A stretch of 64,000 bases of DNA. It comes from Candidatus Kapaibacterium sp. (lineage in GTDB: Bacteria; Bacteroidota; Ignavibacteria; Kapaibacteriales; UBA2268). A program made the position numbers and the translations under genes. Shown one piece after another: positions 42,898 through 57,816 of the stretch. Where the stretch lies: NCBI GenBank assembly GCA_026418625.1, contig JAOABA010000012.1, positions 1 through 64,000 on the forward strand. Direction: 5' to 3'. Position 1 is the first letter of the stretch. The number at the start of each line of letters is the position of its first letter. Under the pieces are notes generated by a model. That model saw only the letters and a list, made by a program, of their open reading frames with translations, was not told the DNA's origin and made no database searches.

Positions 42898-44112
42898 TCA
42901 AGGCATATATAATAATTTTCCCTGAGTGCTTTGATTATTGTTTATGATTCTAAAAAAGTAAGAACCAAAACTTAAATTTTGAGGTTGCCACTCAAATTGA
43001 TGTGTTCCGACTGATAAATATCCATCAAATAAATTATCAATCTTTCTTCCAAATATATCATAAATGATTAATGTGTAAGTCCCTGAATTTTCTATTGTTA
43101 GTTTAAATTTAACACTGTTATTAAATGGAATTGGAGATATAATTAATCGAAAATTATTTGAATTTAGCTCGTCATAACTATCTGCTATTTGTGTTTTATA
43201 TACTCCATTGGCTGTCCCTGCGTATATTATATCATCAATTCCAGAATTCAAACTAAATATATTTTTATTTTGAATATCTAATCCATCGCTATATTCTTTC
43301 CAGTTCTGCCCATAATCAATACTTCTATAAACTCCAGCTGATGTCCCCGCAAAAATACTCTTAGCTTTGGAAATAGTTATAGCTCTGATGACAGTCGTAC
43401 CAATACCATTATTCTGAGACGTCCAATTTTCACCGTTGTCGTTTGAAACATAAAAGCCGTCTTTAGCACATAAATAGAGCTTACCATTATCGTCAACAAC
43501 CATATCATATATATTATTTGTTGAAAATCCAACGCTTTTCCAGTTTTTTCCGTTATCATTTGTTTTATAGAGCCCATTATATTCAGTCCCTGCTAAGATA
43601 GAGCCATCTTTTGCTTTAATCACGGAATGAACATCTTTGTTATCCAACTTTAAATCAGTCCATTGCTGCCCTTTATCGGTTGATACAAAGACTGAGCCAT
43701 AGAACCATGTTCCTGCATAAATGTTCCCGTCCTGCGAAACATATACATCCAAAACATTTTTGTTTGTCAATCCATTATTCGATGCAACCCAATTCTGCCC
43801 ATCGTCAGTTGATTTGAAAATTCCAGTCCCGTTTAATCCAGCAAAGGCTGTTCCTTCAGAATTATATCTAATCACTTTAACCAATTTATCAGGCAGTCCC
43901 ATTGAGGCATTTGTCCAATTAGAACCATTAATATCCGACCTGAAAACCCCTTCACCATAAATACCCACCAAAATTTTGCCATTTTTTGGATTTATTGCTA
44001 TTGTCTCGACTATCCCAACCGGCAGAGAGTCAGTCTTAATCCATATCTGCGATGATGCAAAATTCAAACTCATTAAAATCAATGACAAGCAAAGAAGCAA
44101 TTTTATTCTCAT
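42898..44112 (-). CDS. Secreted beta-propeller (YCF48/BNR-like) protein with T9SS sorting domain
   Basis: A 404-residue protein: signal peptide (MRIKLLLCLSLILMSLNFASS), then about seven short blades with STDDGQNW, STDKGQQW, TNDNGKNW, SNDNGENW and SIDYGQNW, and repeated IYAGT or IFAGT. The last ~85 residues are a T9SS type A sorting domain (SPIPFNNSVKFKLTIENSGTYTLIIYDIFGRKIDNLF...GSYFFRIINNNQSTQGKLLYMP). It lies 30 bp downstream of the DUF1573 gene at the end of the chaperone-usher block and may be its last gene. Confidence 0.82.
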   Translation of the reverse strand: MRIKLLLCLSLILMSLNFASSQIWIKTDSLPVGIVETIAINPKNGKILVGIYGEGVFRSDINGSNWTNASMGLPDKLVKVIRYNSEGTAFAGLNGTGIFKSTDDGQNWVASNNGLTNKNVLDVYVSQDGNIYAGTWFYGSVFVSTDKGQQWTDLKLDNKDVHSVIKAKDGSILAGTEYNGLYKTNDNGKNWKSVGFSTNNIYDMVVDDNGKLYLCAKDGFYVSNDNGENWTSQNNGIGTTVIRAITISKAKSIFAGTSAGVYRSIDYGQNWKEYSDGLDIQNKNIFSLNSGIDDIIYAGTANGVYKTQIADSYDELNSNNFRLIISPIPFNNSVKFKLTIENSGTYTLIIYDIFGRKIDNLFDGYLSVGTHQFEWQPQNLSFGSYFFRIINNNQSTQGKLLYMP

Positions 44113-44142
44113 TTTTCCACTCCTAACATTCTAAATTATCAA

Positions 44143-44838
44143 TTATTTAACCATACCAAAACAGGAAATCTTAAGCTCAGAATATTCCTCGTAATCAACT
44201 TTTATTTGAATAGCACTATTGTAAAAGCCCGACTGCTTCGGTTTTGCAGATATCTTAAGTTCAAATTCTTCGCCTTCAGGAATATTTTTTCTGCCATCCT
44301 TTATGTTTACAACCTGACAGTCATCGGACAGCGGTTCGAAGCCGGAAAGATTTATTTCCCTTCCTGTATTGTTTATTATTATCACGCTTGTTGTATCAAC
44401 CCTGCCAACCTCCATATCTCCAAAACTTATGGCATTGCCGGGAATTAGCTCAATCGGATAAAAGACATCAGCTTCGAGCCTGAAAATCTTATCCTTGTTC
44501 ACAGGGTCGTTCGATGTTATTCTGACAGTCTTTGAAACCTTGTTGTGTGTCCCGGTAATTCTGAAAACTATCGGCAGATTTGCAGTATCGCCCGGATTAA
44601 GTTCGCTTTTGTCTAATTCTGCAGTTGTGCAACCACAAGCAGGCTTCACCTCGGAAATAATCAGCTTTTTATTTCCGGTATTTAGAATTTTTATTGTAGT
44701 AGTCAGAGGGTCTTTCTTGATGGAAACCCTACCCCAATTGTAAGTATCACCGCCAAGAATCTCAATCTTTGGCTGCGAAAAAGAAATATTTACCGAAAAA
44801 AAATAAATTATCAGGCACAAAAAAACTTTAATTTTCAT
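44143..44838 (-). CDS. Secreted DUF1573-domain protein
   Basis: A protein of about 231 residues starting MKIKVFLCLIIYFFSVNISFSQ (signal peptide). The first mature domain matches DUF1573: NWGRVSIKKDPLTTTIKILNTGNKKLIISEVKPACGCTTAELDKSELNPGDTANLPIVF, including the characteristic CGCT. A second similar Ig-like/MSP-type sandwich follows (INNTGREINLSGFEPLSDDCQVVN). Such beta-sandwiches recall the folds of chaperone-usher components, but the role is unknown. ATG at 44838 is chosen because it begins the signal peptide. It follows the usher gene by 57 bp. Confidence 0.75.
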   Translation of the reverse strand: MKIKVFLCLIIYFFSVNISFSQPKIEILGGDTYNWGRVSIKKDPLTTTIKILNTGNKKLIISEVKPACGCTTAELDKSELNPGDTANLPIVFRITGTHNKVSKTVRITSNDPVNKDKIFRLEADVFYPIELIPGNAISFGDMEVGRVDTTSVIIINNTGREINLSGFEPLSDDCQVVNIKDGRKNIPEGEEFELKISAKPKQSGFYNSAIQIKVDYEEYSELKISCFGMVK

Positions 44839-44895
44839 AATATCACCGTTTATAATAATTTCATTAATTGTCAGATAGTATATTTTTCTAAACAA

Positions 44896-47800
44896 CTATT
44901 CAATAATTTTTACTTCGACTCTGCGGTTTTTAGCACGTCCTTGAGCCGTTTTGTTATCGCCAACAGGATATAATGCTCCGTGACCTGATGAATAGAGCCT
45001 CGAAAGCGCTATTCCTTTCCTATAAAGATAATTTACAACTTCCTTTACTCTTTGCTCTGAAACTTTCATATTTTCTTCCATTGTGCCGAAATTGTCCGAA
45101 TGACCGTCTATTTGGGCTTTTGCATTAGGATTTTCAATCAGATATTTTGCTACTTTGTCCAATTCTTTTTGCATTGGAACGGACAGCCAAGTCCATTTTG
45201 ATTCCTTATAAAGCAGCAACACATTCGGAACTCCATCTTTCGAGTCAAACTTTGGTTCGGACAGTTTCTTAGTTGGTTTTCTATCATCAATCTTTCCGTT
45301 GCCATTTACGAGAGTATCAATTTTTATTTCTGCCTCGGGGACAATCGGGGTTGAAATAGTTTCGATAATAACTTTCTTTTTGCCCTTTTCTTTGCGGTCA
45401 AGCAGGACGAAATCAAGCCCTTCGATGAAATCTCCGGCTTTTGTGCTCTTCACTGTGAAACGCTTGATAGTATCTTGCTGATAAACGTCCAGAATGGCAC
45501 ATTGGAGCGAATCCACCCAAGCTAGATAATTTCCCGGCATCAATCCCATCTTGTAGAAACTACCATCAGAAAAAACCGGCTGCGTTTCGTGATAGCTTGA
45601 ATCCTCGCTCATAATATGAATCTTAACACCTGCCTGACCTTCCGTCTTCCCATCCCTTTCCCTCAGAACAGTCCCTTCGATAATGCCGGTTAGAAAACAA
45701 GGAATATTTATTGACTTAAATCTATTTGGTTCAGATATGAAAGAAAATTCAGTAATTTTAGGAACAATCATAGGATTTTTAATTGAGCTTTGTTCAATAG
45801 ATACATTATATTGCTCATAGGGGTATAAATTATTAAAATAGGTTGCCTTATCCTTAATTTTTTTTGATGCTCTGTTACCTTGAATATTAATTTTAACATT
45901 TTCGACAAAAGGTTCACCATCATCCAGATTGTTGTTATTATTTTCATCAATAAATAACCTAACTATTGCAGAATTTGTACCTAACGATCTATAAATAGGA
46001 TTAGTAACATTGAGATCCCAATTTTTTGAATCAATACCAATGATCCCATTAAGTGATTGTGAATAATTATAATATTCTCTTGACAATGTCAAATCTGAAC
46101 TACTTCGGAACAAATCAAAATCGATTCTTAAATTTAGTTGAAAAGATGTATGATTAAAAAAGAAGTCCTTGATATATCGTGCATTCAAAGAAGTATTATT
46201 ATTGATCCTTTGATCAAAACTTAATTGCAATTGATTAAATCTATTATCATCAACATCATAACTCAATCTTGAACCAAGTCTCGATGAACTAAAAAATTTT
46301 GATTTAAAAGGTGAGCTAATTGATATGCTAGTAGAAATAATATTATTTGTATAAATCCCTTGAGTCATATTATTAGATGAATTGTAATTATAATTAAGAT
46401 CTATGTTAATAGGATTATAACGAAAGGATAAACGAGCTGAAAAATAGTCATCAATTCTTTGATTATACCAAATCCTTCTGCCAGATAAGTTAATATAAAA
46501 CATAGAGTTAAATATTCTCGGTGAGTTTGTATTGAAAGATAACTCATAGTCGGAACCTGAATTATTGTAAATTGATTTTCCTTCAAATTTTGAAAATTTT
46601 AATTCATAATTACCTCTATCAAAGGGCCAGTAACGTAGTCTAATTGTGTTTGAATAATTATAATAAAAATCATAACTAAGATATAAGTTCTTCAAAATAG
46701 CTATAGACATACTATTAATAATATCAAGATTCGATAAACCTTCATATTTTTTAATACTTGTTGAGTTACTTAACCAATTAAAAATTCCTGCTGAAAATCT
46801 TCCTTCATACATCCTTCTATTAGTTATTTTTTTTGACTCTCCGATGTTTATAAAATATTTGAATTCACCCGGTTTCATAATTTCTGGTGGTATTTGTATA
46901 ATTGTCTGTTTACTTAAGTATTCACCCTTATCTCCGTAAAATCTTAGTTCATAATTAGAAAAACCATAATTGATTGGGATAGAAAATTGATAATACCCAT
47001 TAACATCAGTTAACATTTGGGAATATAAGAAACCATCTTTATATAACTCTACCTGCCAATTAGGTTTAATTCTATCCTCAATTGTAAAATTACTGAAAAA
47101 TGATGGGTAGCAATCTCTTTCATTCGTTATTTGAACACCAAAAAATTGTTCAGTTGGAATACTACTCATCCTTAAACTATTAGTTGAAATGTCTCCCAAG
47201 CTGACACTTCTCAGAAAATCATTATCGCCAATATAATACCTCCATTTACCTCTAAATTGATTAACGTTGTTTAGGTTTTTGTTCTGATAATAAATAGTAT
47301 GACCCAATGAAACATCGCCACCAAATATTTCAAAATCAAAATTTAGATTGGAATTTATTGATTGGTTGTTATTCTTATCAGTAGACCCTTTGATATTATA
47401 ATCTAATAAGCCGAAGCTGATAATGTTTCTGCTCCTATCAAAAAGTAGAGGGAAATTACTTTCACCATTTTCATTGTTATTTAAGAAATTATATTGCTTA
47501 CGTCTCTTATATGCGAGATAAATTGGTAATTCATCTTCTGTTTTTAACTTTGCGCTTAATTCTTTCATTGAAATCTCGATATTCCAATCGAAAATTTCTT
47601 TGAATACAGACGGCAGGGCGTAAACCTCTAACTCGTCAAATAAAATATCATTTATATCAAAGCTAAATCTTTTTTCATTTATTGATCCTTTTCCTTCCTT
47701 GAAACTTATAGTATATTTTTTTGACTGGTCAATATAAAAACCTTTTACAATAAAATTCTTATAGTCAACCTCATTATAAATTTTAAGGTAATTTAAGATT

Positions 47801-47961
47801 TCATAAAAAGGAAGGTATATTTGTTCCTGATAAAATTTTATTAATATGTCTCTCCTAAATGTTCCCTTGTAAATTAGCTTTACAACACCATCATTTATTC
47901 CATCAGGTAATTTAAATTCTCTTTCCTTCTGTCCAAAGACAGGTAAAAAAAAAATGAACAC
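44896..47961 (-). CDS. Usher-like outer-membrane protein with C-terminal OmpA domain
   Basis: A protein of about 1021 residues. The N-terminal ~140 residues (IYLPFYEILNYLKIYNEV, YALPSVFKEIF) resemble an usher N-domain. NWQVELYKDGFLYSQMLTDVNGYYQFSIPINYGFSNYELRFYGDKGE at residues ~310-360 is the usual usher middle segment. Long strand-rich barrel sequence follows, then DENNNNNLDDGEPFVENVKI (SdrD/Ig-like). The last ~105 residues are OmpA-like and peptidoglycan-binding (QIDGHSDN, SEQRVKEVVNYL, GRAKNRRVEVKI). The visible start is GTG at 47961, giving a short signal peptide without basic residues. A better start (GTG 47990) is in another frame across a T10 run. The chaperone gene precedes it. Confidence 0.72.
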   Translation of the reverse strand: MFIFFLPVFGQKEREFKLPDGINDGVVKLIYKGTFRRDILIKFYQEQIYLPFYEILNYLKIYNEVDYKNFIVKGFYIDQSKKYTISFKEGKGSINEKRFSFDINDILFDELEVYALPSVFKEIFDWNIEISMKELSAKLKTEDELPIYLAYKRRKQYNFLNNNENGESNFPLLFDRSRNIISFGLLDYNIKGSTDKNNNQSINSNLNFDFEIFGGDVSLGHTIYYQNKNLNNVNQFRGKWRYYIGDNDFLRSVSLGDISTNSLRMSSIPTEQFFGVQITNERDCYPSFFSNFTIEDRIKPNWQVELYKDGFLYSQMLTDVNGYYQFSIPINYGFSNYELRFYGDKGEYLSKQTIIQIPPEIMKPGEFKYFINIGESKKITNRRMYEGRFSAGIFNWLSNSTSIKKYEGLSNLDIINSMSIAILKNLYLSYDFYYNYSNTIRLRYWPFDRGNYELKFSKFEGKSIYNNSGSDYELSFNTNSPRIFNSMFYINLSGRRIWYNQRIDDYFSARLSFRYNPINIDLNYNYNSSNNMTQGIYTNNIISTSISISSPFKSKFFSSSRLGSRLSYDVDDNRFNQLQLSFDQRINNNTSLNARYIKDFFFNHTSFQLNLRIDFDLFRSSSDLTLSREYYNYSQSLNGIIGIDSKNWDLNVTNPIYRSLGTNSAIVRLFIDENNNNNLDDGEPFVENVKINIQGNRASKKIKDKATYFNNLYPYEQYNVSIEQSSIKNPMIVPKITEFSFISEPNRFKSINIPCFLTGIIEGTVLRERDGKTEGQAGVKIHIMSEDSSYHETQPVFSDGSFYKMGLMPGNYLAWVDSLQCAILDVYQQDTIKRFTVKSTKAGDFIEGLDFVLLDRKEKGKKKVIIETISTPIVPEAEIKIDTLVNGNGKIDDRKPTKKLSEPKFDSKDGVPNVLLLYKESKWTWLSVPMQKELDKVAKYLIENPNAKAQIDGHSDNFGTMEENMKVSEQRVKEVVNYLYRKGIALSRLYSSGHGALYPVGDNKTAQGRAKNRRVEVKIIE

Positions 47962-47990
47962 AAAAAAAATATAAATGCCTTTTTAACCAC
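47945..47990 (-). promoter_or_regulatory. T10 homopolymer in the usher signal-peptide region (possible frameshift or phase switch)
   Basis: On the minus strand, GTG at 47990, 9 bases after the chaperone stop, opens MVKKAFIFFLCSFFF, a good signal peptide in the wrong frame. A run of ten T (47954-47945) follows. Adding one T would join it to LPVFGQKEREF of the usher frame. A second run of eight T lies at 47969-47962. Confidence 0.6.
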
Positions 47991-47999
47991 TGATTTTTA

Positions 48000-48824
48000 T
48001 TAATCTATATTAAAGTAAATCTCTTGCTTTTTATCTTTAAAGGGTATTCTTCTTTCCTCCGGTATATCAGATCTATCGGTTGAATAAAAAAGCTCTATTT
48101 TATATCTTCCCGATTTAATTAAATTTCTGTCTATTGTAATTCTTTTTTTAGATTGTATGTAATAAGAAATTAATTCATCAGCGCCAACTACTTCTTTGCC
48201 TTTTTCATCAAAAATTTGATATTTAAGTTTTCCCCAAAAGGGTGAATTACCAAATTTACTAACATTAAATAAAAGTGAATAATTGTTTGAGTCTGATATG
48301 ATTTTTTCAAGTTCAAATGATATATCCGTTGTCAAATTTCCTTTTTGATAGAATATAGCTGATATCATTTTTGTCCTAAGAGATATAGAAGCTGAGACTT
48401 GCCCTTGATTTGTGGTATCTATTTGTTTTGAAAGAGGATTAGAGATAGCAGAAAATCTTGTAATATATGTTCCATCGGGTAAATCCGGTAGATTCAGTAA
48501 AAATACTCTTACTGTTTGCAGCTCATTTGGTGGAACAATAAGCTTAGGAGGAAAAATCTTTAGGAATCGTGCTAATGAATAATTAATTAAATTTGTGGTA
48601 TCATTATATATATCCATTCTATTACCTAAAGAATCATAACCAATGTAGCCAAATATAGCTTCCATAGCTATCTCTCTCAACTCGTTAGAAGTATTTTTTA
48701 TTGTTAGCTCTCCTGACCTTGTTCTGTTATCAATAAACAATGACGGTGGGTAAATACTTATCTGAGCATTTAAAGAAACAACCAAAGCAAAAAATATGTA
48801 AAATATAACGATATTTGTTTTCAT
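48000..48824 (-). CDS. PapD-like periplasmic chaperone (fimbrial chaperone family)
   Basis: A 274-residue protein with a signal peptide (MKTNIVIFYIFFALVVSLNAQ). The first Ig-like domain (ISIYPPSLFIDNRTRSGELTIKNTSNELREIAMEAIFGYI, then FLKIFPPKLIVPPNELQTVRVFLLNLPDLPDGTYITRFSAIS) fits the pattern of pilus chaperones: an edge strand of alternating hydrophobics before the conserved turn. A second domain follows. Such chaperones hold pilin subunits in the periplasm and pass them to the usher. It lies between pilin-like genes and the usher-like gene on the same strand. Confidence 0.72.
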   Translation of the reverse strand: MKTNIVIFYIFFALVVSLNAQISIYPPSLFIDNRTRSGELTIKNTSNELREIAMEAIFGYIGYDSLGNRMDIYNDTTNLINYSLARFLKIFPPKLIVPPNELQTVRVFLLNLPDLPDGTYITRFSAISNPLSKQIDTTNQGQVSASISLRTKMISAIFYQKGNLTTDISFELEKIISDSNNYSLLFNVSKFGNSPFWGKLKYQIFDEKGKEVVGADELISYYIQSKKRITIDRNLIKSGRYKIELFYSTDRSDIPEERRIPFKDKKQEIYFNID

Positions 48825-48895
48825 AATCTTTTTTTAACCAAATGTATTTTTTAATATCGTTAATTCATTTAAGAAGTTTAATGATAAAATTAATA

Positions 48896-48927
48896 ATTGG
48901 AACGACATAATAAAATGCCGTTCCAAT
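48896..48927 (-). terminator. Hairpin between pilin-like and chaperone genes
   Basis: ATTGGAACG and CGTTCCAAT form a perfect 9-bp stem with a 14-base loop, 22 bases past the second pilin-like stop, followed on the minus strand by an AT-rich stretch. It could partly end transcription so that pilins exceed chaperone and usher. Confidence 0.6.
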
Positions 48928-48949
48928 ATTTGTCAAATATGTTTTTCGA

Positions 48950-49456
48950 TCAGTAATCTATTAATTCTGCATTAATAGTTACATTAAATATCTTAATACC
49001 CGGTGCTATACCGGTAGCTGGTATTGTCAGCTTTGTAACCTTACACTTGAAGTGTGCTGCAGCATCACAACCTGTGCCATTTGGTAAAGTCACATTTTGT
49101 GTGATTTCAGTATTTGGGCTTAAATCAATGTAAACTCCTGTAGAATTTATTGACCATAAATAATCAATTTCTACTCCACTAATATTATCCACTGTTGTGG
49201 ATGAAACACTAAACTTCATTCCTGTTGCTCCTTCAAGCACAAACACTTGTTCATCCTCATCAAAGACAGTATATGTGCCTCCAGTGAAGAAATCACCTAA
49301 ATATACGCTTTCACCTTCAGGTCCTAAATAAGGCATACAGAACACATTCACTTCGTATTTGTTCGTTTCTTTTCCTTCGTAAGCTGGATCTCCTAACTGT
49401 GCCTTTGAAGTATATACCAAAGCCAACAATAAAATCAAAATAATTATCTTATTCAT
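48950..49456 (-). CDS. Secreted pilin-like subunit 2 (DUF4402-like)
   Basis: A 168-residue protein: signal peptide MNKIIILILLLALVYTSKAQ, then a single beta-sandwich-like domain with YLGDFFTGGTYTVFDEDEQVFVLEGATG, one Cys pair (CDAAAHFKC) and a final strand IKIFNVTINAELIDY ending in Tyr. It is clearly related to the next protein upstream: both have LGDFF, an FxLxGATG-type stretch and the xAEL(T/I)xY ending. The overall plan resembles DUF4402/fimbrial-type subunits. Assignment as a pilin rests mainly on its neighbours, the chaperone and usher. Confidence 0.65.
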   Translation of the reverse strand: MNKIIILILLLALVYTSKAQLGDPAYEGKETNKYEVNVFCMPYLGPEGESVYLGDFFTGGTYTVFDEDEQVFVLEGATGMKFSVSSTTVDNISGVEIDYLWSINSTGVYIDLSPNTEITQNVTLPNGTGCDAAAHFKCKVTKLTIPATGIAPGIKIFNVTINAELIDY

Positions 49457-49479
49457 AAATTATTTGAGTTTGTTAATAA

Positions 49480-49935
49480 TTAATAACTTGTTAGTTCTGC
49501 TTCAATGCCAACAGTAAGTGTTAAGTTACCAGTAGCTGTAAAATGAGCCTTTTTTAAAGTATACGTAAATGTCTTCTGAGCACCACAGGAACCAGTTATA
49601 TTTACTTCAGTTAGCTTTTCAAGCCATTTTCCATCATCAACTACAAATCCTGCTTCAGGTATTTCAATATATGTAATAGCAAATACTTGATCTGTACCTT
49701 CTGTAGCTCCACCTGTTAAAGTAAATGTCATACTTTCTGAACCTGTCCATTCCTGATTAATGAAGAAATCACCCAATACGATGTCAGTAGCTGGTGATAA
49801 TTCTGGTTGGCAAACAACATAAGCTTTGTAATCATTTGTGGCTTCATCTGACCAATCTAATTGACCAACTGCTTGTGCCCAAGCTGCTGTTCCGAAAAGA
49901 ACTAAAACTGCGAGAATTGCAAATAACTTTTTCAT
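49480..49935 (-). CDS. Secreted pilin-like subunit 1 (DUF4402-like)
   Basis: A protein of about 151 residues beginning MKKLFAILAVLVLFGTAAWAQ (signal peptide), with a strong AAAGGAG ribosome-binding site before ATG 49935. The mature domain has DIVLGDFFINQEWTGSESMTFTLTGGATEGTDQ, a Cys in ITGSCGAQK and the ending TGNLTLTVGIEAELTSY, similar to the following subunit. The strong ribosome-binding site and first position suit a major structural subunit. A nested stem-loop leader lies upstream at 50017-50151. Confidence 0.65.
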   Translation of the reverse strand: MKKLFAILAVLVLFGTAAWAQAVGQLDWSDEATNDYKAYVVCQPELSPATDIVLGDFFINQEWTGSESMTFTLTGGATEGTDQVFAITYIEIPEAGFVVDDGKWLEKLTEVNITGSCGAQKTFTYTLKKAHFTATGNLTLTVGIEAELTSY

Positions 49936-50188: not shown

Positions 50189-51922
50189 CTATTTAACTAA
50201 AACAACTTTCTGGTTTAATGAAAAGTTTGTGCCGACTGCTCTAATGAGATAGATGCCCGACATCAAACCGTTCGAGTTAATTGTAATTTCGTTCCTGCCG
50301 GAGTTCAACATCCCGGAGAAAACATCAGAAACCTTTCTGCCCTGAACGTCATAAAGCGAAACCGTTACGAAATCCTTTTCGGGCAAGCTCAAATCGAACG
50401 AGGTCTCGGTTGTGAATGGATTTGGATATGCCTGAGTTTGCATAGCCTCTTCCGGTGCTTCGTCATAAGTGTAATAATGCCAATCCCCATCCTGCCTTGG
50501 GAATTCATCTCCGTTAATTGGATGATAGAATGATGTTCCATAGTTAGTATTAATCAGATAATAAACATCCTGCCATTTGTCAAGATTATTATAAACCATC
50601 ACATCGCCAAGGAAACCATTGAACTCGCAAGAATATGTACTTCCAATGCTATAATCATCGAACCTTGTCCTACAGGCACCTCCAACACCGTGATTGTCAA
50701 CATCCTTTGTAATACCCGAAAAATTCATAGCCGATGAAATCAAACGTGTTGAATTATAATACAGCATACCTCTGAATTTTTTGGAATCAGCATTATACTC
50801 CAGATGTGCCATAAGAAGATTTGGCATAGCAGTTGGCAAAGTAATCGAAGTATATCTCGATTCGAACCTATTCCACATACCGAAGAACAGAGATCCATTT
50901 TTGATGTAGATATTAAACCCGCTCAAAGGACCACCAAACTCTGCAAGAACTTGCCTTCCATCGCTCCAATAGGCTGGACCACCGTCCGGTGCTTCAGGTT
51001 TGAAAATTATCAGCAGGCTTTTATCAGTTTGATCTTCTTGTGGATCCCACTTATTATCATTAACCGATGTGATAATATCCTGAACATTATTATAAGGTAT
51101 TGTCATAATGTCGGAATAGCCATATTTATTAGCATCGCTGACAACAGTAAACCTTACTCCGGGAAGATATGTATTTGCCGGGCTTGGTCTTTGATACCAA
51201 TTACTTACAAAAGTTGGTTGCCTCTTCGAATCTTCCATAATTGCATCATCTTTGTCAAGTCCTGCGATATCATACCACTTTTTAAAAGGATTTAACTCAT
51301 TTTGTTTATCGTATTTCATATAATCAGGGTCAAGACGCAGAACGATTTCTTTGGAATAAATGCCGGGTGGAACAGCATCTCTAACTTTGTAAATATACCA
51401 ACTACCTGTATATTTGAATCCAAGATCGCAATACCACCTCTCAACTAATTGACCATTAAGATAAGTGTCAAAATAAAATTTTATCTTTTTCATTTCATTA
51501 GTTGGAGGATCCGTAAAGTGTAATTTGAATTCAATTTGCCAAGTAGTCGAATTTATATTATTTTTTATAATAGCTAATATATCACTATCATAAGTCTCAA
51601 CCCAACTTCCTTTTTTGGGATTTGTTGGTAGCTCTGTAACAACCTTCCAAGCTGTAACTTCAAATGGCTTCGTATTTGTAATATTATCTGCTTCGAACTT
51701 GCAGTTACCATCCAACCAATAAATCCTCATTTCGTTAAACGGATGTTGTTTTGAAATTGCTTCATTAACTGGACCGGGATTATCTTCCCACTGCTGAGTA
51801 AAAGGTTGAAGCCAACTATCTCCTTCCTCAGCTTCTCCAACAACTATCGCTGAAAAAAGCTGGAAAGAAAATAGGACAAAACCTAAAAATATTATTAATA
51901 AATGCTTCATTTTTTTTATCAT
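50189..51922 (-). CDS. Secreted T9SS protein with conserved lectin-like module (paralogue 1)
   Basis: A 577-residue protein with a signal peptide (MIKKMKHLLIIFLGFVLFSFQLFS). The middle (~residues 240-470) is a LamG-like module shared with the next two genes: YWSDGRQVLAEFGGPLSGFN, FFGMWNRFESRY, GVGGACRTRFDDYSIGSTYS and GFLGDVMVYNN. A T9SS type A sorting domain follows (QAYPNPFTTETSFDLSLPEKDFVTVSLYDVQGRKVSDVFSGML...LMSGIYLIRAVGTNFSLNQKVVLVK). An ATG four codons later is also possible. The N-terminal region is unknown. Probably surface-attached or secreted. It lies directly upstream of the fimbrial-like block. Confidence 0.78.
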   Translation of the reverse strand: MIKKMKHLLIIFLGFVLFSFQLFSAIVVGEAEEGDSWLQPFTQQWEDNPGPVNEAISKQHPFNEMRIYWLDGNCKFEADNITNTKPFEVTAWKVVTELPTNPKKGSWVETYDSDILAIIKNNINSTTWQIEFKLHFTDPPTNEMKKIKFYFDTYLNGQLVERWYCDLGFKYTGSWYIYKVRDAVPPGIYSKEIVLRLDPDYMKYDKQNELNPFKKWYDIAGLDKDDAIMEDSKRQPTFVSNWYQRPSPANTYLPGVRFTVVSDANKYGYSDIMTIPYNNVQDIITSVNDNKWDPQEDQTDKSLLIIFKPEAPDGGPAYWSDGRQVLAEFGGPLSGFNIYIKNGSLFFGMWNRFESRYTSITLPTAMPNLLMAHLEYNADSKKFRGMLYYNSTRLISSAMNFSGITKDVDNHGVGGACRTRFDDYSIGSTYSCEFNGFLGDVMVYNNLDKWQDVYYLINTNYGTSFYHPINGDEFPRQDGDWHYYTYDEAPEEAMQTQAYPNPFTTETSFDLSLPEKDFVTVSLYDVQGRKVSDVFSGMLNSGRNEITINSNGLMSGIYLIRAVGTNFSLNQKVVLVK

Positions 51923-52018
51923 TTGGTCTTTAATCAGTTAGTTTGTAAAAAAAGTTGCTTTAGTTGATTTACACATAGTCTGATTAACAACCTTAAAAAA
52001 ATAATGCGAAAAAATACT

Positions 52019-52093
52019 GGATAAAACACCCAAGGAATGAAAAAACCAATTGAGAAAAACGCATTTTGGAGCCTCCCCCGGGTGTTTTTATCC
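52019..52093 (-). terminator. Long stem-loop between two T9SS genes
   Basis: GGATAAAACACCC (52019-52031) pairs with GGGTGTTTTTATCC (52080-52093), with one bulged base, around a 48-base loop. It lies between the stop of the 736-residue protein gene and the start of the next gene. On the minus strand the stem is followed by AGTATTTTTT, so it can work as a terminator. Confidence 0.6.
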
Positions 52094-52133
52094 TATTAAC
52101 TATCAATTGAGAAATAACAAAAATTTGAGTTTT

Positions 52134-54344
52134 TTACTTTGTTAATACGACTTTGCAGGATTCATTGAATCCATCGCCTGTAACCCTGATGATATACATA
52201 CCATCAGAAAGATCCGAACCATCAATTTCGAAATCGTGTATGCCAGTTTTCATATCACCGGAAAATATTCTCTTTACTTTCTGGCCAATACCATTATATA
52301 AATCAACAGATATAGCCTTGTCCTCTGGCAAATAAACCGAGAAGCTTGTTTTATTCGAAAAAGGATTTGGATAAGCTGTAGCAATGGCAATTTTGCCGTC
52401 AATTATCTCTGAATTGTCAATTACATCCCAATCTGAAATCTTCGGTGCGATATTGAATGCTTCTTTATACTCAAAATTAGTCCCAAACTTATTGTTAATA
52501 TAAAGGTATAAATTGTATAAATAGTATTGATTGACATAATAGTCATCATCTCCTTGCCTTGAAAAGAATTTATTGAACAATAAAATCTCACCGATGGCAC
52601 CAGCAAAATGATCTGAATGAGTTGACCCAATGCTATAATCAGCATAGGCAGTCCTTGACGCACCACCAACGGCAATTTTTTCATTTGGGAAGTAGATATC
52701 TTTTGTTAAGCCTTGGAAAGTAACAAAATTAGAAAAAGTAGCATAAGGAGGTGCTGAGGGTCCGTCATTATATTTACTCACACCGACTCTAAATTTGTTA
52801 TTTACTTCATCAAATTCCAAAATTGCCATATAGACAGTATTTTTATCTAACGGATATAGGAAATTATCACCCGGTGGAGGATTATAAACCATAAACTTTC
52901 GCTCAAATCTATTCCACATCCCGAAGCAAACTTTTCCATTTGATATATAAACATTATAACCGGATAGGGGACCGCCTGCTTCGAAAATGCATTGTCTTCC
53001 ATCTGACCAATATGGTTTTGGATCTCCAGTAGAATTAATATTTGCCCCTGCTTTAAAAATAATAAACAGAGATTTATCTTTTGAGTTTGGTTTCCATTTA
53101 TCTGTCTCATCGGAGACAATTTCACCATCAATATCAGAGGTTACTAATATATCCGACAGACCATATTCAGTCGCTCCGTTCTTTTGTTCAAAAACAACAC
53201 CTCTTTTATTATTAGTAATTGGTGCAGATGCAAAAACACTTCCGGTTGTTGGTCTCATATTAGCGTTTATGGGGACTGCATCTTCTGCAGGAGTAGTCTT
53301 ATCCATCCATTTTTCAACATAAGTCCCAGTCCCGTTCATAACTAACTTGGTTAAATCAGAGGCGTCATACCATAAAACAAGATTATTCTCGTAAGGACCT
53401 GCCGCACCACAGCTTAACGGAGACATATTATTATTTTTATAAGAATTAAATAAATTGTCTGCTAAAGTTTGCGTAAATGGCTGATTGAATATTCCGAGCT
53501 CATCTATTAATCCATTCCACCAATATTGCTTTGCATCGTTTGGGCAAACTGTAACAGAACCGATATTAACATCCGCATCTTTAACTACAATTCCCTGATC
53601 ATCAATTCTTCGAAAAGTATGTCTGACCCAAGTTCCATTCCCGTCATCATCTTCATAAACCATTAAAAGATATTCATGTTCTGTGGCACTAATTTTCTTG
53701 TAGCTGGCAACCATAAAATACCATTTATTCTTTTGAATGAGAAACGTGGCTGGATTAGGGTCAATACAGCTAGCTGCTTCGCTATAAACCCAACAATTGT
53801 GACTCCAGCTATCATACCATGTTCCCCACATTATTAGACCATTGGCTCCATCCTTGATTTTAAGCTGATACTGTGTCCCAGAGTTACAATATCCTTTGGA
53901 AACTATTTGTCTGGTGTTTGTATTATCAACAAATGATTTTACCCAGACAGAAATAGTAAAGCCACCCCCATCGCTCATTGTAGCAGAATTAAAATTCAAT
54001 TTTTCTGGTTTCCCAAGATTAACATACCTTGCGCAGTTATCATTATCTACCCCCGAGCATGTTTCAGTAAATTTATAGTTCACGCACTGTTTGTTGATAC
54101 CTTCTACCCAAAGAGGTGGAGGTGCAGTTGGTGGAACTACGTATGGTGTAATTACAACTCCATTTGCTGCAGGTAGATACCCACTTACATCATCAGTCAG
54201 TGTTCCTTCGCAATAATCGAAGTTCCAATATCCAATCAAACTTCCACTTGGATAACTCAATCCTGTTGGAAAATTTGGTGGTGCGGCATTGGAAATAACC
54301 CACCCAAACATCATCATCGTAACCAGTATTAACATTTTTTTCAT
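52134..54344 (-). CDS. Secreted T9SS protein with LamG domain and conserved lectin-like module (paralogue 2)
   Basis: A 736-residue protein. A signal peptide (MKKMLILVTMMMFGWVISNAA) precedes a LamG/concanavalin-like domain (LIGYWNFDYCEGTLTDDVSGYLP...FTISVWVKSFVDN...WWNGLIDELGIFNQPFT) at about residues 30-310. The shared module follows (YWSDGRQCIFEAGGPLSGYN, CFGMWNRFERKF, VGGASRTAYADYSIGSTHS), and then a T9SS sorting domain (TAYPNPFSNKTSFSVYLPEDKAISVDLYNGIGQKVKRIFSGDM...DGMYIIRVTGDGFNESCKVVLTK). An AAGGAG-type site precedes ATG 54344. The substrate is probably a polysaccharide or surface glycan, by analogy only. Confidence 0.8.
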   Translation of the reverse strand: MKKMLILVTMMMFGWVISNAAPPNFPTGLSYPSGSLIGYWNFDYCEGTLTDDVSGYLPAANGVVITPYVVPPTAPPPLWVEGINKQCVNYKFTETCSGVDNDNCARYVNLGKPEKLNFNSATMSDGGGFTISVWVKSFVDNTNTRQIVSKGYCNSGTQYQLKIKDGANGLIMWGTWYDSWSHNCWVYSEAASCIDPNPATFLIQKNKWYFMVASYKKISATEHEYLLMVYEDDDGNGTWVRHTFRRIDDQGIVVKDADVNIGSVTVCPNDAKQYWWNGLIDELGIFNQPFTQTLADNLFNSYKNNNMSPLSCGAAGPYENNLVLWYDASDLTKLVMNGTGTYVEKWMDKTTPAEDAVPINANMRPTTGSVFASAPITNNKRGVVFEQKNGATEYGLSDILVTSDIDGEIVSDETDKWKPNSKDKSLFIIFKAGANINSTGDPKPYWSDGRQCIFEAGGPLSGYNVYISNGKVCFGMWNRFERKFMVYNPPPGDNFLYPLDKNTVYMAILEFDEVNNKFRVGVSKYNDGPSAPPYATFSNFVTFQGLTKDIYFPNEKIAVGGASRTAYADYSIGSTHSDHFAGAIGEILLFNKFFSRQGDDDYYVNQYYLYNLYLYINNKFGTNFEYKEAFNIAPKISDWDVIDNSEIIDGKIAIATAYPNPFSNKTSFSVYLPEDKAISVDLYNGIGQKVKRIFSGDMKTGIHDFEIDGSDLSDGMYIIRVTGDGFNESCKVVLTK

Positions 54345-54364
54345 TTTTTTCTCCTTTTTTTTAT

Positions 54365-54395
54365 GACTGCACCCCTTTTTTTCAGGGGTGCAGTC
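54365..54395 (-). terminator. Perfect hairpin between T9SS paralogue genes
   Basis: GACTGCACCCC and GGGGTGCAGTC form an 11-bp stem with a 9-base loop, 10 bases past the stop of the 1.1-kilo-residue protein gene. On the transcribed (minus) strand an A-rich stretch, not a T-run, follows, leading into the ribosome-binding site of the next gene. It may be an attenuator or mRNA-stability element. Confidence 0.6.
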
Positions 54396-54405
54396 TGTTA
54401 ATAAA

Positions 54406-57400
54406 TTATCTGTTTAAAATTACTTGGGTTGTTTGAGTGAACATTTCTCCGGCAACTTTGATGAAGTAAATGCCTGAGCTAAGTCCTGTGCCGTCAATTT
54501 CTATATCGTGGATGCCTTCGCCGAGCTTCCCTTTGAAGACATTCAAAACCTTTCTGCCCATCAAATCGAGCAATTCAACATTGACAAACTGCTCGCTTGT
54601 CAGATTCACACCAATGCTTGTCTTGTGCGAGAATGGATTAGGATAAGCAGAGCTGATGGCGTTATCGCCAGTTTTATCAATATCAGATATTACAATCCAA
54701 TCCTGTGTTGATATTCTGGGGCTTGTTCCGCTTGGAACTCCATATCTTGCAAAAAGGTAACTATTGACATCAGCCGCTTCAGTAAATTCACCTGAATAAA
54801 TAATAATATCACCAAGCAAACCATCAAATTCGTCCGAATAGGTGGAACCAACAGAATAATCATGATAACGTGTCCTTGCTGCACCACCGATTCCTGTTTT
54901 ATCCTCAGCATCCTGAGAAATTCCGGCAAATGATATTTCAGGACTTGGTGTTATTGTTGAACCATCACTTAAGACTGCTTGAAATTTTGTCCCGTCATAT
55001 TTCAAATAACCATAATAAGTTTTATTTGTTGAAAGTGGATAGAGAGAGCTGTTTTCAAGTATTGTGTATTTGCTTTCGAATCTGTTCCACATACCGAAGA
55101 CAAGTTTACCGGATACAATGTATAGATTATACCCCGAAAGTGGACCGCCTGCTTCAAATATACATTGGCGACCGTCTCGATAATAAACCGGAGGTTGGGC
55201 TTCAGCATCAACGGATGACCCTGTCTTGAATGTTACAAAAAGATTCTTTTTCTCTTTTGAGGGATGCCATTTGTCAATAGTGTTTTCAACATCTGTTGCA
55301 GTAATATTGCCATAGCGAGCAACTTCCATAACATCTGAAAAACCATATTTATTAACACCATAGTCAGACTCGAATTTTACCCAACCATCTGCGTAAATTG
55401 GTTGTCTATTTGGTGCGTTTTGAACAGCTTCTCGATTTCCGCAATCCATACTTAACCATTTTGAGAGCCTTTCGTCGCCGTGTCTTTTTGCATTTATTGA
55501 AGAGAGCCAAAGAGCGGGATCTCCCAAGTAATTGCCAAGCCAAGGATCATAGTCAACAAATCCAGAACTGGCTGATCCATAAGGGGTTGTATATGGATAA
55601 ACTGTAGGACCATTGCAATGTCCCCACCAGTTATATTCTGCATTGACATAATTTGATATATGTGAATTTGCAACTCCAGCAGGTACAGATGTTGGACCTG
55701 TAAAATTATTAAAGTTGATTTTATAAGTTGATGGATCAGCAATTTTGTTATAAGTGTTTGTTTTACCTATTAAAACGGCTACTCCCGGATAAGGAGTTCC
55801 CGGCTGAGATGGATTATAGGTTTTGTTAATATCTACAAACAGATTACCAAGAACATTTACATTTGTTGGTGTATTGTTATCTGAAATGTCTGTAGGTGAT
55901 ATATCAATACCGTAACCCCAAGCACCAGAAACTATATTATTAAATTCGTTATCAAGAATATAAACTTGATCAACAAATCCTTGAACTGCAATTCCAACAG
56001 CACCCCCAAGAGCTGTATTACTGATATTTTCAATTACATTCTTTTCGATTTTAATATTAGATATTGTTGAAGGACCATCTTCATAAATATGAATACCTTT
56101 TAGTGTAGCACTAGCAACAGATCCACTTACGCCTGTAATGATGTTGTTTTTTACTATTACATTACTTGCATTGATATATATAGCAGCATCAGAAGCTGTA
56201 AATGCAGGTGGATCAATCTTAAAGTTTTCTAATGTAACATTATTGGCAGTAATATCAACAGTCCCGGTTATTAGGGCGGTATTGGTCGGCGGATTTATAG
56301 CACGAACAGTCAAGCTCTTATTAATTGTAACGTTTTCATTATAAGTGCCATCATAAACTTCGATTGTATGCCCATTTAATGTTGAAGCATCGTTAATAGC
56401 GGGTTGAATCGCACAGAACCATTTTCCAGTATTGATATTTTGAACTAAGTTGGTATTTCCATTGCAACTACCGGGAACAGGTTGAAAACCGGGTGTACCG
56501 GGTTCATTATCAGTTCCGTTTGTTAGATAGGGTGCAATATTAACCAAACCTGAAACTCTGTTTTTAATAACACAGGGATCAGTAGTGCCCCACCAATTGC
56601 AACTCAAATTAGCTGGGTTTATTGAATTACTGGAAACAGAGCCTGTTATAAAGCTGTTTTTATTAAAGTTAACGTTTGAGACTGGTCCGCCGTTTAGTGG
56701 AGTCCCATTTTGTGAAGATGGAGTCTCCCAAATAATTAAATTTTGATAGTCTGTGCCTGAACCATCGTCAATATCGTTAAGATGGAAAACACAGTTTGTG
56801 ACTGTAACACCATCAATTGAATTAGAAGATTTATAGGTTCCTAAATTTATTGCTCTTCCAAAAGTCTCTGAAATTGTGCAGCCTGTAATATTGATATTTG
56901 AGCTAACCCAAAAATCTTCCCATAATTTAATTCCATACCTATGGTAGATTTCTAGTGTGCTATTAGGAGTTCCTGCTGTTGTAGCTGACTCACCGTTGCG
57001 CCACCAAGAGCTGTTACTAATGTTAGCGTTAGTTATTCTCTTTATTGAAAGTCCCCCTGCTCTATTTCGATTAAATGTGCATCCAGAAATAGTGAGATTG
57101 TTTACATTAATAAGCTCAAGACCATATCCGTTCATATCTCCATTACTACCATTTCTCAGAAAATAGGAGTTTGTAATGGTAACATTTTGAACTGTAACTG
57201 ATGGCCAATTAATTGAGAAACCCCAATACTTAGAATCAACAAATTTGCAATTATCTACCGAAATATTACTATAAGTGCCACCGCTTTCAAATAGAACGTT
57301 TCTTGCCTCAGCTTTCGAGACAATTACATCTTTCATGGTGATTCCATCAAATGAGCCTCCCGTCTCACCAAATCTGATAAAGAAGCCCGGTCCAGTTGCA

Positions 57401-57747
57401 CCATAAGGTTCTAATGTAAATCCTTGCAACCAGAATGATATGGGACTTGAAGTGCTATTTAAAACTTCCAACCCATTTGTTAGGTTTTGAACTTGAATTT
57501 TTGTTGACCCGCTACCGGCTCCAACAATTTTCAATGATTTATTCTGCACACTTAGTCCAGTCCATCCAAAATTGTTTTCAACATAAGTCCCCGATGCAAC
57601 GTGGATCTCATCACCACTATTTGCAGCGTTTATGGCTGCTTGAATTGTTGAGTATTGAGACGGGACATATAAAACTGCTCCCCACCCGTTACTTGAAAAA
57701 ATAGTTAATAAAACTAAAGATAAAATAATTGTGTAAACTTTTTTCAT
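54406..57747 (-). CDS. Secreted T9SS protein with right-handed beta-helix and conserved lectin-like module (paralogue 3)
   Basis: A protein of about 1113 residues. After the signal peptide (MKKVYTIILSLVLLTIFSSNGWG), residues ~30-730 form two parallel beta-helix (pectate-lyase-like) regions, starting VPSQYSTIQAAINAANSGDEIHVASGTYVEN and FCAIQPAINDASTLNGHTIEVYDGTYNEN, with many PbH1-type turns. The shared module follows (YYRDGRQCIFEAGGPLSGYN, VFGMWNRFESKY, GIGGAARTRYHDYSVGSTYS), then a T9SS sorting domain (SAYPNPFSHKTSIGVNLTSEQFVNVELLDLMGRKVLNVFKG...SSGIYFIKVAGEMFTQTTQVILN). ATG at 57747 is preferred. Its ribosome-binding site may be masked by a hairpin. Confidence 0.82.
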   Translation of the reverse strand: MKKVYTIILSLVLLTIFSSNGWGAVLYVPSQYSTIQAAINAANSGDEIHVASGTYVENNFGWTGLSVQNKSLKIVGAGSGSTKIQVQNLTNGLEVLNSTSSPISFWLQGFTLEPYGATGPGFFIRFGETGGSFDGITMKDVIVSKAEARNVLFESGGTYSNISVDNCKFVDSKYWGFSINWPSVTVQNVTITNSYFLRNGSNGDMNGYGLELINVNNLTISGCTFNRNRAGGLSIKRITNANISNSSWWRNGESATTAGTPNSTLEIYHRYGIKLWEDFWVSSNINITGCTISETFGRAINLGTYKSSNSIDGVTVTNCVFHLNDIDDGSGTDYQNLIIWETPSSQNGTPLNGGPVSNVNFNKNSFITGSVSSNSINPANLSCNWWGTTDPCVIKNRVSGLVNIAPYLTNGTDNEPGTPGFQPVPGSCNGNTNLVQNINTGKWFCAIQPAINDASTLNGHTIEVYDGTYNENVTINKSLTVRAINPPTNTALITGTVDITANNVTLENFKIDPPAFTASDAAIYINASNVIVKNNIITGVSGSVASATLKGIHIYEDGPSTISNIKIEKNVIENISNTALGGAVGIAVQGFVDQVYILDNEFNNIVSGAWGYGIDISPTDISDNNTPTNVNVLGNLFVDINKTYNPSQPGTPYPGVAVLIGKTNTYNKIADPSTYKINFNNFTGPTSVPAGVANSHISNYVNAEYNWWGHCNGPTVYPYTTPYGSASSGFVDYDPWLGNYLGDPALWLSSINAKRHGDERLSKWLSMDCGNREAVQNAPNRQPIYADGWVKFESDYGVNKYGFSDVMEVARYGNITATDVENTIDKWHPSKEKKNLFVTFKTGSSVDAEAQPPVYYRDGRQCIFEAGGPLSGYNLYIVSGKLVFGMWNRFESKYTILENSSLYPLSTNKTYYGYLKYDGTKFQAVLSDGSTITPSPEISFAGISQDAEDKTGIGGAARTRYHDYSVGSTYSDEFDGLLGDIIIYSGEFTEAADVNSYLFARYGVPSGTSPRISTQDWIVISDIDKTGDNAISSAYPNPFSHKTSIGVNLTSEQFVNVELLDLMGRKVLNVFKGKLGEGIHDIEIDGTGLSSGIYFIKVAGEMFTQTTQVILNR

Positions 57748-57816
57748 AAAAACCACCTTTTTTTTGTTTGCAAATAGTTACTTTTTTACCCGCTGCAAAA
57801 ATAGTTGGTGGTTTTT
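57748..57816 (-). promoter_or_regulatory. Inverted repeat covering the ribosome-binding site of the beta-helix gene
   Basis: On the minus strand AAAAACCACC (57816-57807) is the exact reverse complement of GGTGGTTTTT (57757-57748), which lies immediately before the ATG at 57747 and includes the AAGGTGG ribosome-binding site. The loop is 49 bases. Pairing in the mRNA would hide the site. Confidence 0.5.

Follow-up and report, generated by a model that had tools for sequence, protein, structure and literature searches.

A predicted, divergent chaperone-usher locus in a Kapabacteria relative, with an usher that ends in an OmpA domain

The locus and its usher

This analysis concerns a predicted chaperone-usher locus in a 64,000-nt stretch of DNA (the window) from Candidatus Kapaibacterium sp., a relative of the Kapabacteria within the Bacteroidota. 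All of the locus genes share the minus strand. Read in the direction of transcription, they encode two pilin-like subunits, a chaperone, an usher with an OmpA domain at its end, a DUF1573 protein, and a propeller protein, and the pilin, chaperone, and usher genes, being co-oriented and adjacent, are predicted to form one operon. An earlier reading made from the letters alone (the sequence-only reading) had reported five of these open reading frames (ORFs), and all five are present where it placed them. It had also taken the two small upstream proteins to be secreted and related to each other, which a direct comparison confirms (phmmer 1.2e-6 and 9.1e-7, 27% identity). The core genes and the parts of the usher are as follows.

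49480..49935, minus strand: pilin-like subunit 1, starting at an ATG; its signal peptide reads ...GTAAWAQA, and the last residue of its C-terminal beta-strand is Y
48950..49456, minus strand: pilin-like subunit 2, secreted, related to subunit 1 (pilin profile)
48000..48824, minus strand: predicted PapD-like periplasmic chaperone, 274 aa, two immunoglobulin (Ig) domains (AlphaFold2 and Foldseek)
44896..47961, minus strand: predicted outer-membrane usher with C-terminal OmpA domain, 1021 aa (AlphaFold2, Foldseek, hhalign)
47945..47969, minus strand: two homopolymer runs, T10 and T8, where the usher gene begins; upstream signal-peptide-like start in another frame
47527..47898, minus strand: usher N-terminal periplasmic domain, about residues 22-145 (DSSP of the model)
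46030..47421, minus strand: usher beta-barrel, residues 181-644 (DSSP strand list, 6 + plug + 18 = 24)
46891..47100, minus strand: usher plug domain, about residues 288-357, ...WQVELYKDG..GYYQFSIPINYG... (DSSP; aligned to the FimD plug region)
45397..45984, minus strand: two C-terminal beta domains of the usher, about residues 660-855 (DSSP of the model)
44896..45186, minus strand: OmpA domain, residues 926-1021 (PF00691), preceded by the disordered linker 858-920

What kind of protein is the 1021-aa product? Searches with the window proteins themselves say little. In single-sequence searches the chaperone, the usher core, and the pilins gave no relevant match to Pfam or NCBIfam models, and the usher and PapD profiles that the sequence-only reading had proposed as a check fail to recognize the window proteins in this form. 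The usher model PF00577 has no match in the window's own genome. Among 247 Bacteroidota genomes it yields two signals, at 22.1 and 18.7 bits, both inside members of the usher family described here and both below the cut-off of 27.1, which is read as a limit of sensitivity rather than as a biological criterion. The identification accordingly draws on relatives and on comparisons of structure and fold.

The usher was modeled with AlphaFold2 from the window protein and relatives found by a locus search alone (loci from the profile scan of genomes did not enter the structure models), giving a predicted local distance difference test score (pLDDT) of 78.5 and a predicted template modeling score of 0.54. 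By DSSP, six strands (residues 181-279) are followed by a plug (288-357) and 18 further strands (367-644), which adds up to a barrel of 24 strands interrupted by the plug after the sixth. This is the architecture of FimD and PapC. One N-terminal domain precedes the barrel, two beta domains follow it as far as residue 855, and residues 858-920, with pLDDT below 50, form a predicted disordered linker between these domains and the OmpA domain. Where the C-terminal beta domains lie, 17 of 25 family members have CarboxypepD_reg-like matches. The N-domain, middle segment, and long barrel that the sequence-only reading had described are all predicted, the middle segment as part of the plug, and the barrel has the 24 strands that it had suggested looking for in a model. 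The first of the two refuting outcomes that it had named, a model lacking barrel or plug, did not come about.

Comparison with known structures points the same way. When the model was searched against the PDB with Foldseek, the 18 best matches were all FimD or PapC, with E values from 1.0e-30 (the best FimD) to 7.9e-16 and with the best PapC at 4.6e-22; the next match lies at 1.5e-7. In hhalign, the core of the usher family aligns with a profile of E. coli FimD, YehB, and ElfC at 96.6% probability over 518 columns, while a TonB-type barrel from the same window, used as a control, scores 0.1%. Against one sequence at a time the probabilities of the core drop, to 18.2% for FimD and 2.9% for EcpC. 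The modeled fold is unambiguous, and the protein is predicted to be a very divergent usher of the FimD/PapC type.

Relatives of this usher occur in the same genus, family, and order and beyond. The named records belong to Candidatus Kapabacteria, Ignavibacteria, and Balneolales, and they include the isolate Fodinibius salsisoli. A profile of the usher core finds 54 of the 247 Bacteroidota genomes sampled (27 of 122 genera), a few of them by a match that is weak or incomplete. Within the window's class it finds 58 of 245 genomes (35 of 130 genera). The chaperone gene sits on the same strand, just upstream of the usher, in 50 of 56 distinct loci, and five of the six exceptions are cut at a contig start. 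The window's genome itself carries a second chaperone-usher pair, on contig C10.

The chaperone, the subunits, and known systems

The AlphaFold2 model of the chaperone has a pLDDT of 88.7. Its Foldseek matches include CfaA (8.7e-10), YadV (7.2e-9), EcpB (1.8e-8), PapD (3.1e-8), and CsuC (5.4e-8), and PapD-type chaperones make up most of the top 50, although the top single match is a WxL-interacting protein (WxLIP) of the Gram-positive Enterococcus (1.6e-10). Profile alignment with FimC, EcpB, YehC, and ElfD gives 90.8% probability. The window chaperone falls below the PapD_N (PF00345) cut-off of 23, while L102, L103, and L104, chaperones of more distant members of the same usher family, pass it with 24.7, 27.7, and 29.0. 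The sequence-only reading's PapD-like chaperone is thus upheld by the fold matches and by these three relatives.

Residues known to matter in such chaperones can also be followed. One proline is invariant across the chaperone superfamily, and an arginine on strand F1, which holds the subunit carboxylate, is typical of archaic and alternative chaperones (PMC4654587). Pro92, kept in 24 of 24 chaperones, is where we would place the equivalent of that proline. Arg123, on strand F1, is found in 21 of 24 chaperones and stands two residues away from the EYRSH-type position of L035 and L100-L104; because the register differs in this way between sub-groups, the chaperone is assigned to neither the archaic nor the alternative class. 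The putative donor strand alternates. Residues 143, 145, 147, and 149 are hydrophobic in 24, 22, 24, and 23 of the 24 sequences, against 2, 4, and 8 for the intervening residues 144, 146, and 148. Model and alignment alike fit a predicted two-domain PapD-fold chaperone with an alternating hydrophobic donor strand. As a side observation, 5 of the 24 chaperones match the WxLIP_PGBD model, and usher chaperones may have a deep evolutionary link with WxL-interacting proteins.

The pilin-like subunits are harder to place. Between loci they are highly diverse in number and sequence, with one to several small secreted proteins upstream of the chaperone. A profile of the window-type pilins finds subunit 1 in the genome at 6.5e-32, subunit 1 being itself a member of that profile. 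The sequence-only reading had named DUF4402 as a family to search for, with a divided outcome: 13 of 34 pilin-like genes upstream of sister-locus chaperones match it (best 6.7e-28), but the window-type pilins have no direct family match. What joins the two kinds is a profile comparison (hhalign 97.9%) that covers nearly the whole length, signal peptide included. Given the chaperone's fold matches, the three relatives above the PapD_N cut-off, and these DUF4402 matches, the second refuting outcome named by the sequence-only reading, no significant profile match of chaperone and subunits to pilus families, did not come about either. Against the PDB, the DUF4402 pilin profile has the archaic pilin CsuA/B as its top match, at a weak E value of 0.14 over 130 residues, so that the resemblance of DUF4402 pilins to CsuA/B is suggestive only. 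No mention of DUF4402 was found in the open-access papers searched, and the family gains a likely role as a pilin family. The genome also holds a third pilin-like gene (L112, G000:C22:62406-62984, 1.9e-14), with one TAA within the matched stretch.

How does the locus compare with systems already described? It shares with the classical Fim/Pap pili of E. coli the order of usher domains (N-domain, plugged 24-strand barrel, C-domains) and the chaperone fold, and with fim the gene order pilin, chaperone, usher. It differs from them in its Bacteroidota host, in an identity of about 12% in the fold alignment, with scores below the Pfam cut-offs, and in the added OmpA tail of the window usher; no FimH-like adhesin is seen. 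The chaperone's matches to CfaA, EcpB, and CsuC and its conserved strand-F1 arginine recall the archaic (Csu, CupE) and alternative (Ecp, CFA/I) pili, and the weak CsuA/B match of the DUF4402 pilins recalls archaic Csu. Published distributions of the archaic class and of chaperone-usher systems cover Proteobacteria, Cyanobacteria, and Deinococcus-Thermus (PMC4654587, PMC10104325), unlike the present loci, which would extend chaperone-usher pili into the Bacteroidota. The fused extra domain has a precedent in the P-usher CupB3 of Pseudomonas aeruginosa, where, according to a passage in PMC4793230 that cites Ruer et al. 2008, a type V translocator domain is fused to a chaperone-usher component; the extra domain here is of the peptidoglycan-binding type instead. 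The window's domain has the PF00691 fold of OmpA/Pal-type anchors and their Asp/Arg diaminopimelate pair, and it differs from them in sitting behind an usher on a disordered linker. In the open-access literature no report was found of chaperone-usher pili in Bacteroidota or of an usher fused to an OmpA or SPOR domain, which is weak evidence of absence; the sequence-only reading had not known the fusion to a C-terminal OmpA anchor as described either.

Wall-binding tails and what they may do

The complete OmpA domain that the sequence-only reading saw at the end of the usher is recognized without difficulty: PF00691 matches residues 931-1013 at 57.1 bits (cut-off 27.2). A search of other genomes for the fusion and its neighbors, also suggested at the outset, returned 17 distinct OmpA-tailed ushers in the window's family, with the chaperone as a conserved neighbor but not the DUF1573 protein. 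As these ushers come from separate assemblies, the fusion is not an assembly artifact. They form one clade (Shimodaira-Hasegawa-like approximate likelihood ratio test support 100) with a single apparent loss, in L013; the OmpA tail has one origin, within the family to which the window usher belongs. Is the domain equipped to bind the wall? In the aligned tails, R971 is present in all and D956 in all except L031, which has Glu. In OmpA of Acinetobacter, Asp271 and Arg286 bind diaminopimelate (PMC5974059), and their spacing of 15 is that of D956 and R971. The two residues match this Asp/Arg pair, and peptidoglycan binding is predicted.

OmpA is one of two tails of this kind. SPOR domains, which bind peptidoglycan, stand at the C terminus of the ushers L090 (3.2e-9), L091 (1e-6), L092 (2.4e-14), L093 (2.7e-12), L094 (1.3e-11), L105 (9.8e-10), L108 (8.6e-17), and L061 (3.5e-18); the SPOR labels of L096, L098, L099, and L101 are marginal or sub-cut-off and are not relied on. 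The SPOR tails belong to Balneolaceae-type and some other ushers, on branches apart from the OmpA clade in a tree whose deep branches are weak and in which L105 is a long branch. Two unrelated sorts of peptidoglycan-binding domain are, then, fused to Bacteroidota ushers, and their presence at the same end of one protein family would argue for a common need. Ushers of the window's order-level relatives, among others, are without a tail. Some Balneolales ushers (L052, L062, L063, and L095) end in TPR-like repeats, which are not a wall-binding domain.

From the computed folds, domain order, conserved gene pair, and conserved ligand residues, we infer fiber formation, wall binding, and load bearing in the following scheme. 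(i) Going by the family, Sec would carry the pilin-like subunits into the periplasm. (ii) There the PapD-like chaperone would cap them by giving its G1 strand, as its relatives do. (iii) The N-domain of the usher would take up the chaperone-subunit complexes. (iv) The subunits, again by analogy with the family, would polymerize through donor-strand exchange and, once the plug moves, exit via the 24-strand barrel. (v) The OmpA domain, which the topology would put in the periplasm beside the usher C-domains, could reach the wall on a flexible linker of ~60 residues and would bind the diaminopimelate of peptidoglycan. With the OmpA domain on peptidoglycan, the load on the fiber would pass to the cell wall and not to the outer membrane alone. 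In our judgment the product of the locus is likely a divergent pilus of the chaperone-usher kind, with an usher that doubles as a peptidoglycan anchor. That related bacteria have other wall-binding tails at the same place suggests pili held harder than the E. coli kind. The fused tails bear directly on the mechanical question of how an outer-membrane pore that holds a long fiber resists being pulled out, a question that deletion of a single domain could address.

Several observations weigh against this reading. The window proteins all lie below the Pfam Usher and PapD cut-offs; the chaperone and usher-core profiles match no PDB sequence, and neither does one distant chaperone. The sequence link from the window pilins to known pilins is weak, and no tip adhesin has been identified. 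Many relatives are tail-less, which means that the system as such can do without the anchor. Finally, there is doubt about where the usher starts in this assembly.

The tail might serve another purpose. With the chaperone-usher pair real, it could place or space the usher relative to the wall, at growth sites or against lateral diffusion, without bearing the force of the pilus. Tails of different kinds may mean targeting, given that SPOR domains go to denuded septal glycans, and the many tail-less relatives fit such a role as well; OmpA-type domains elsewhere, however, act as general peptidoglycan tethers. We regard placement alone as unlikely, while granting it a real share of plausibility.

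Could the window copy be silent, its usher start broken by slippage in a T run (as a phase switch, through decay, or by assembly error), with the second copy (G000:C10) as the working one? The usher reading frame begins with GTG and a leader (MFIFFLPVFGQ) that is short and carries no charge, and a more convincing signal-peptide start (VVKKAFIFFLCSFFF...) is located a little upstream in a different frame, across the T8 and T10 runs; slippage, assembly error, or a real GTG start could each account for this. A second pair to take over the function exists. The whole 1021-aa frame is nevertheless open and conserved, and the GTG start with its short leader is there, which makes a silent copy quite unlikely. 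Relatives have no such runs at the usher start, so that a conserved homopolymer phase switch is improbable and was rejected for the family; the leaders of most relatives are continuous.

It is very doubtful that the usher secretes short or monomeric subunits as a surface coat rather than a fiber. The wide variation of the subunits between loci and the missing adhesin would suit a coat, but a donor-strand chaperone and a plugged 24-strand usher constitute a polymerizing apparatus in characterized cases, and CsuA/B ranks first in the PDB for the DUF4402 group, though at E 0.14. That the locus is no chaperone-usher system at all, merely a WxLIP-like Ig protein beside an unrelated barrel, is scarcely credible: the chaperone's best single Foldseek match is the Enterococcus WxLIP, but the top 50 are mostly PapD-type, the usher fold is unambiguous, and the gene order is kept in 50 loci.

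Beyond the wall-anchored pilus at this locus, we lean slightly toward a broader view, in which Bacteroidota pili with DUF4402-type subunits make up a deep chaperone-usher lineage in their own right, whose ushers were repeatedly given peptidoglycan-binding tails (OmpA once, SPOR elsewhere), and wall-anchored ushers are a class of their own.

Recombination and neighboring features

The remaining features lie between the genes or toward the downstream end of the locus.

48896..48927, minus strand: hairpin in the gap between pilin 2 and the chaperone gene; 13-pair stem, U-rich tail
43226..45786, minus strand: segment 77% DNA-identical to a same-genus locus (blastn); C-terminal part of the usher, DUF1573, and propeller gene
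44143..44838 (from ATG), minus strand: DUF1573 protein (PF07610), downstream and co-oriented
42898-44112, minus strand: propeller protein; type IX secretion system (T9SS)-type tail just under the cut-off

The usher gene is divided in its ancestry. Compared in blocks of 50 residues with the usher of a same-genus genome (G001), residues 1-750 are 17-52% identical and residues 751-1021 are 66-95% identical. Similarity in the DNA (blastn) begins at window position 45786, spans the DUF1573 gene, and enters the propeller gene, so that 43226-45786 of the window matches 3101-5649 of L044, with no DNA match upstream; the junction falls near usher residue 725. Trees of the two parts conflict: the window groups with G005 in the tree of residues 22-640 and with the same-genus genome in that of residues 757-1021, each time with a support of 100. 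Judged by these sequence comparisons, the window usher is a recombinant, with a barrel from one lineage and a tail and downstream genes held in common with its genus. In this one comparison the chaperone and barrel seem to be exchanged together as a cassette, which may include the pilins, and the tail and downstream genes stay in place.

The hairpin has a minimum free energy of -18 kcal/mol (z = -5.83, none of 200 shuffles as stable) and is listed as terminator-like. It could be a partial terminator that lowers the expression of the chaperone and usher relative to the pilins.

The DUF1573 protein that the sequence-only reading counted in the locus is present (PF07610, 87.5 bits), but it is not a conserved part of the system. 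It adjoins the usher only in the window and in one same-genus genome (phmmer matched only L002); it was accordingly rejected as a core component and is probably not part of the core system. On the other side of the locus, upstream at 50189-57756, stand three consecutive T9SS-sorted proteins that are related to one another (phmmer 1.4e-64 and 1.1e-57).

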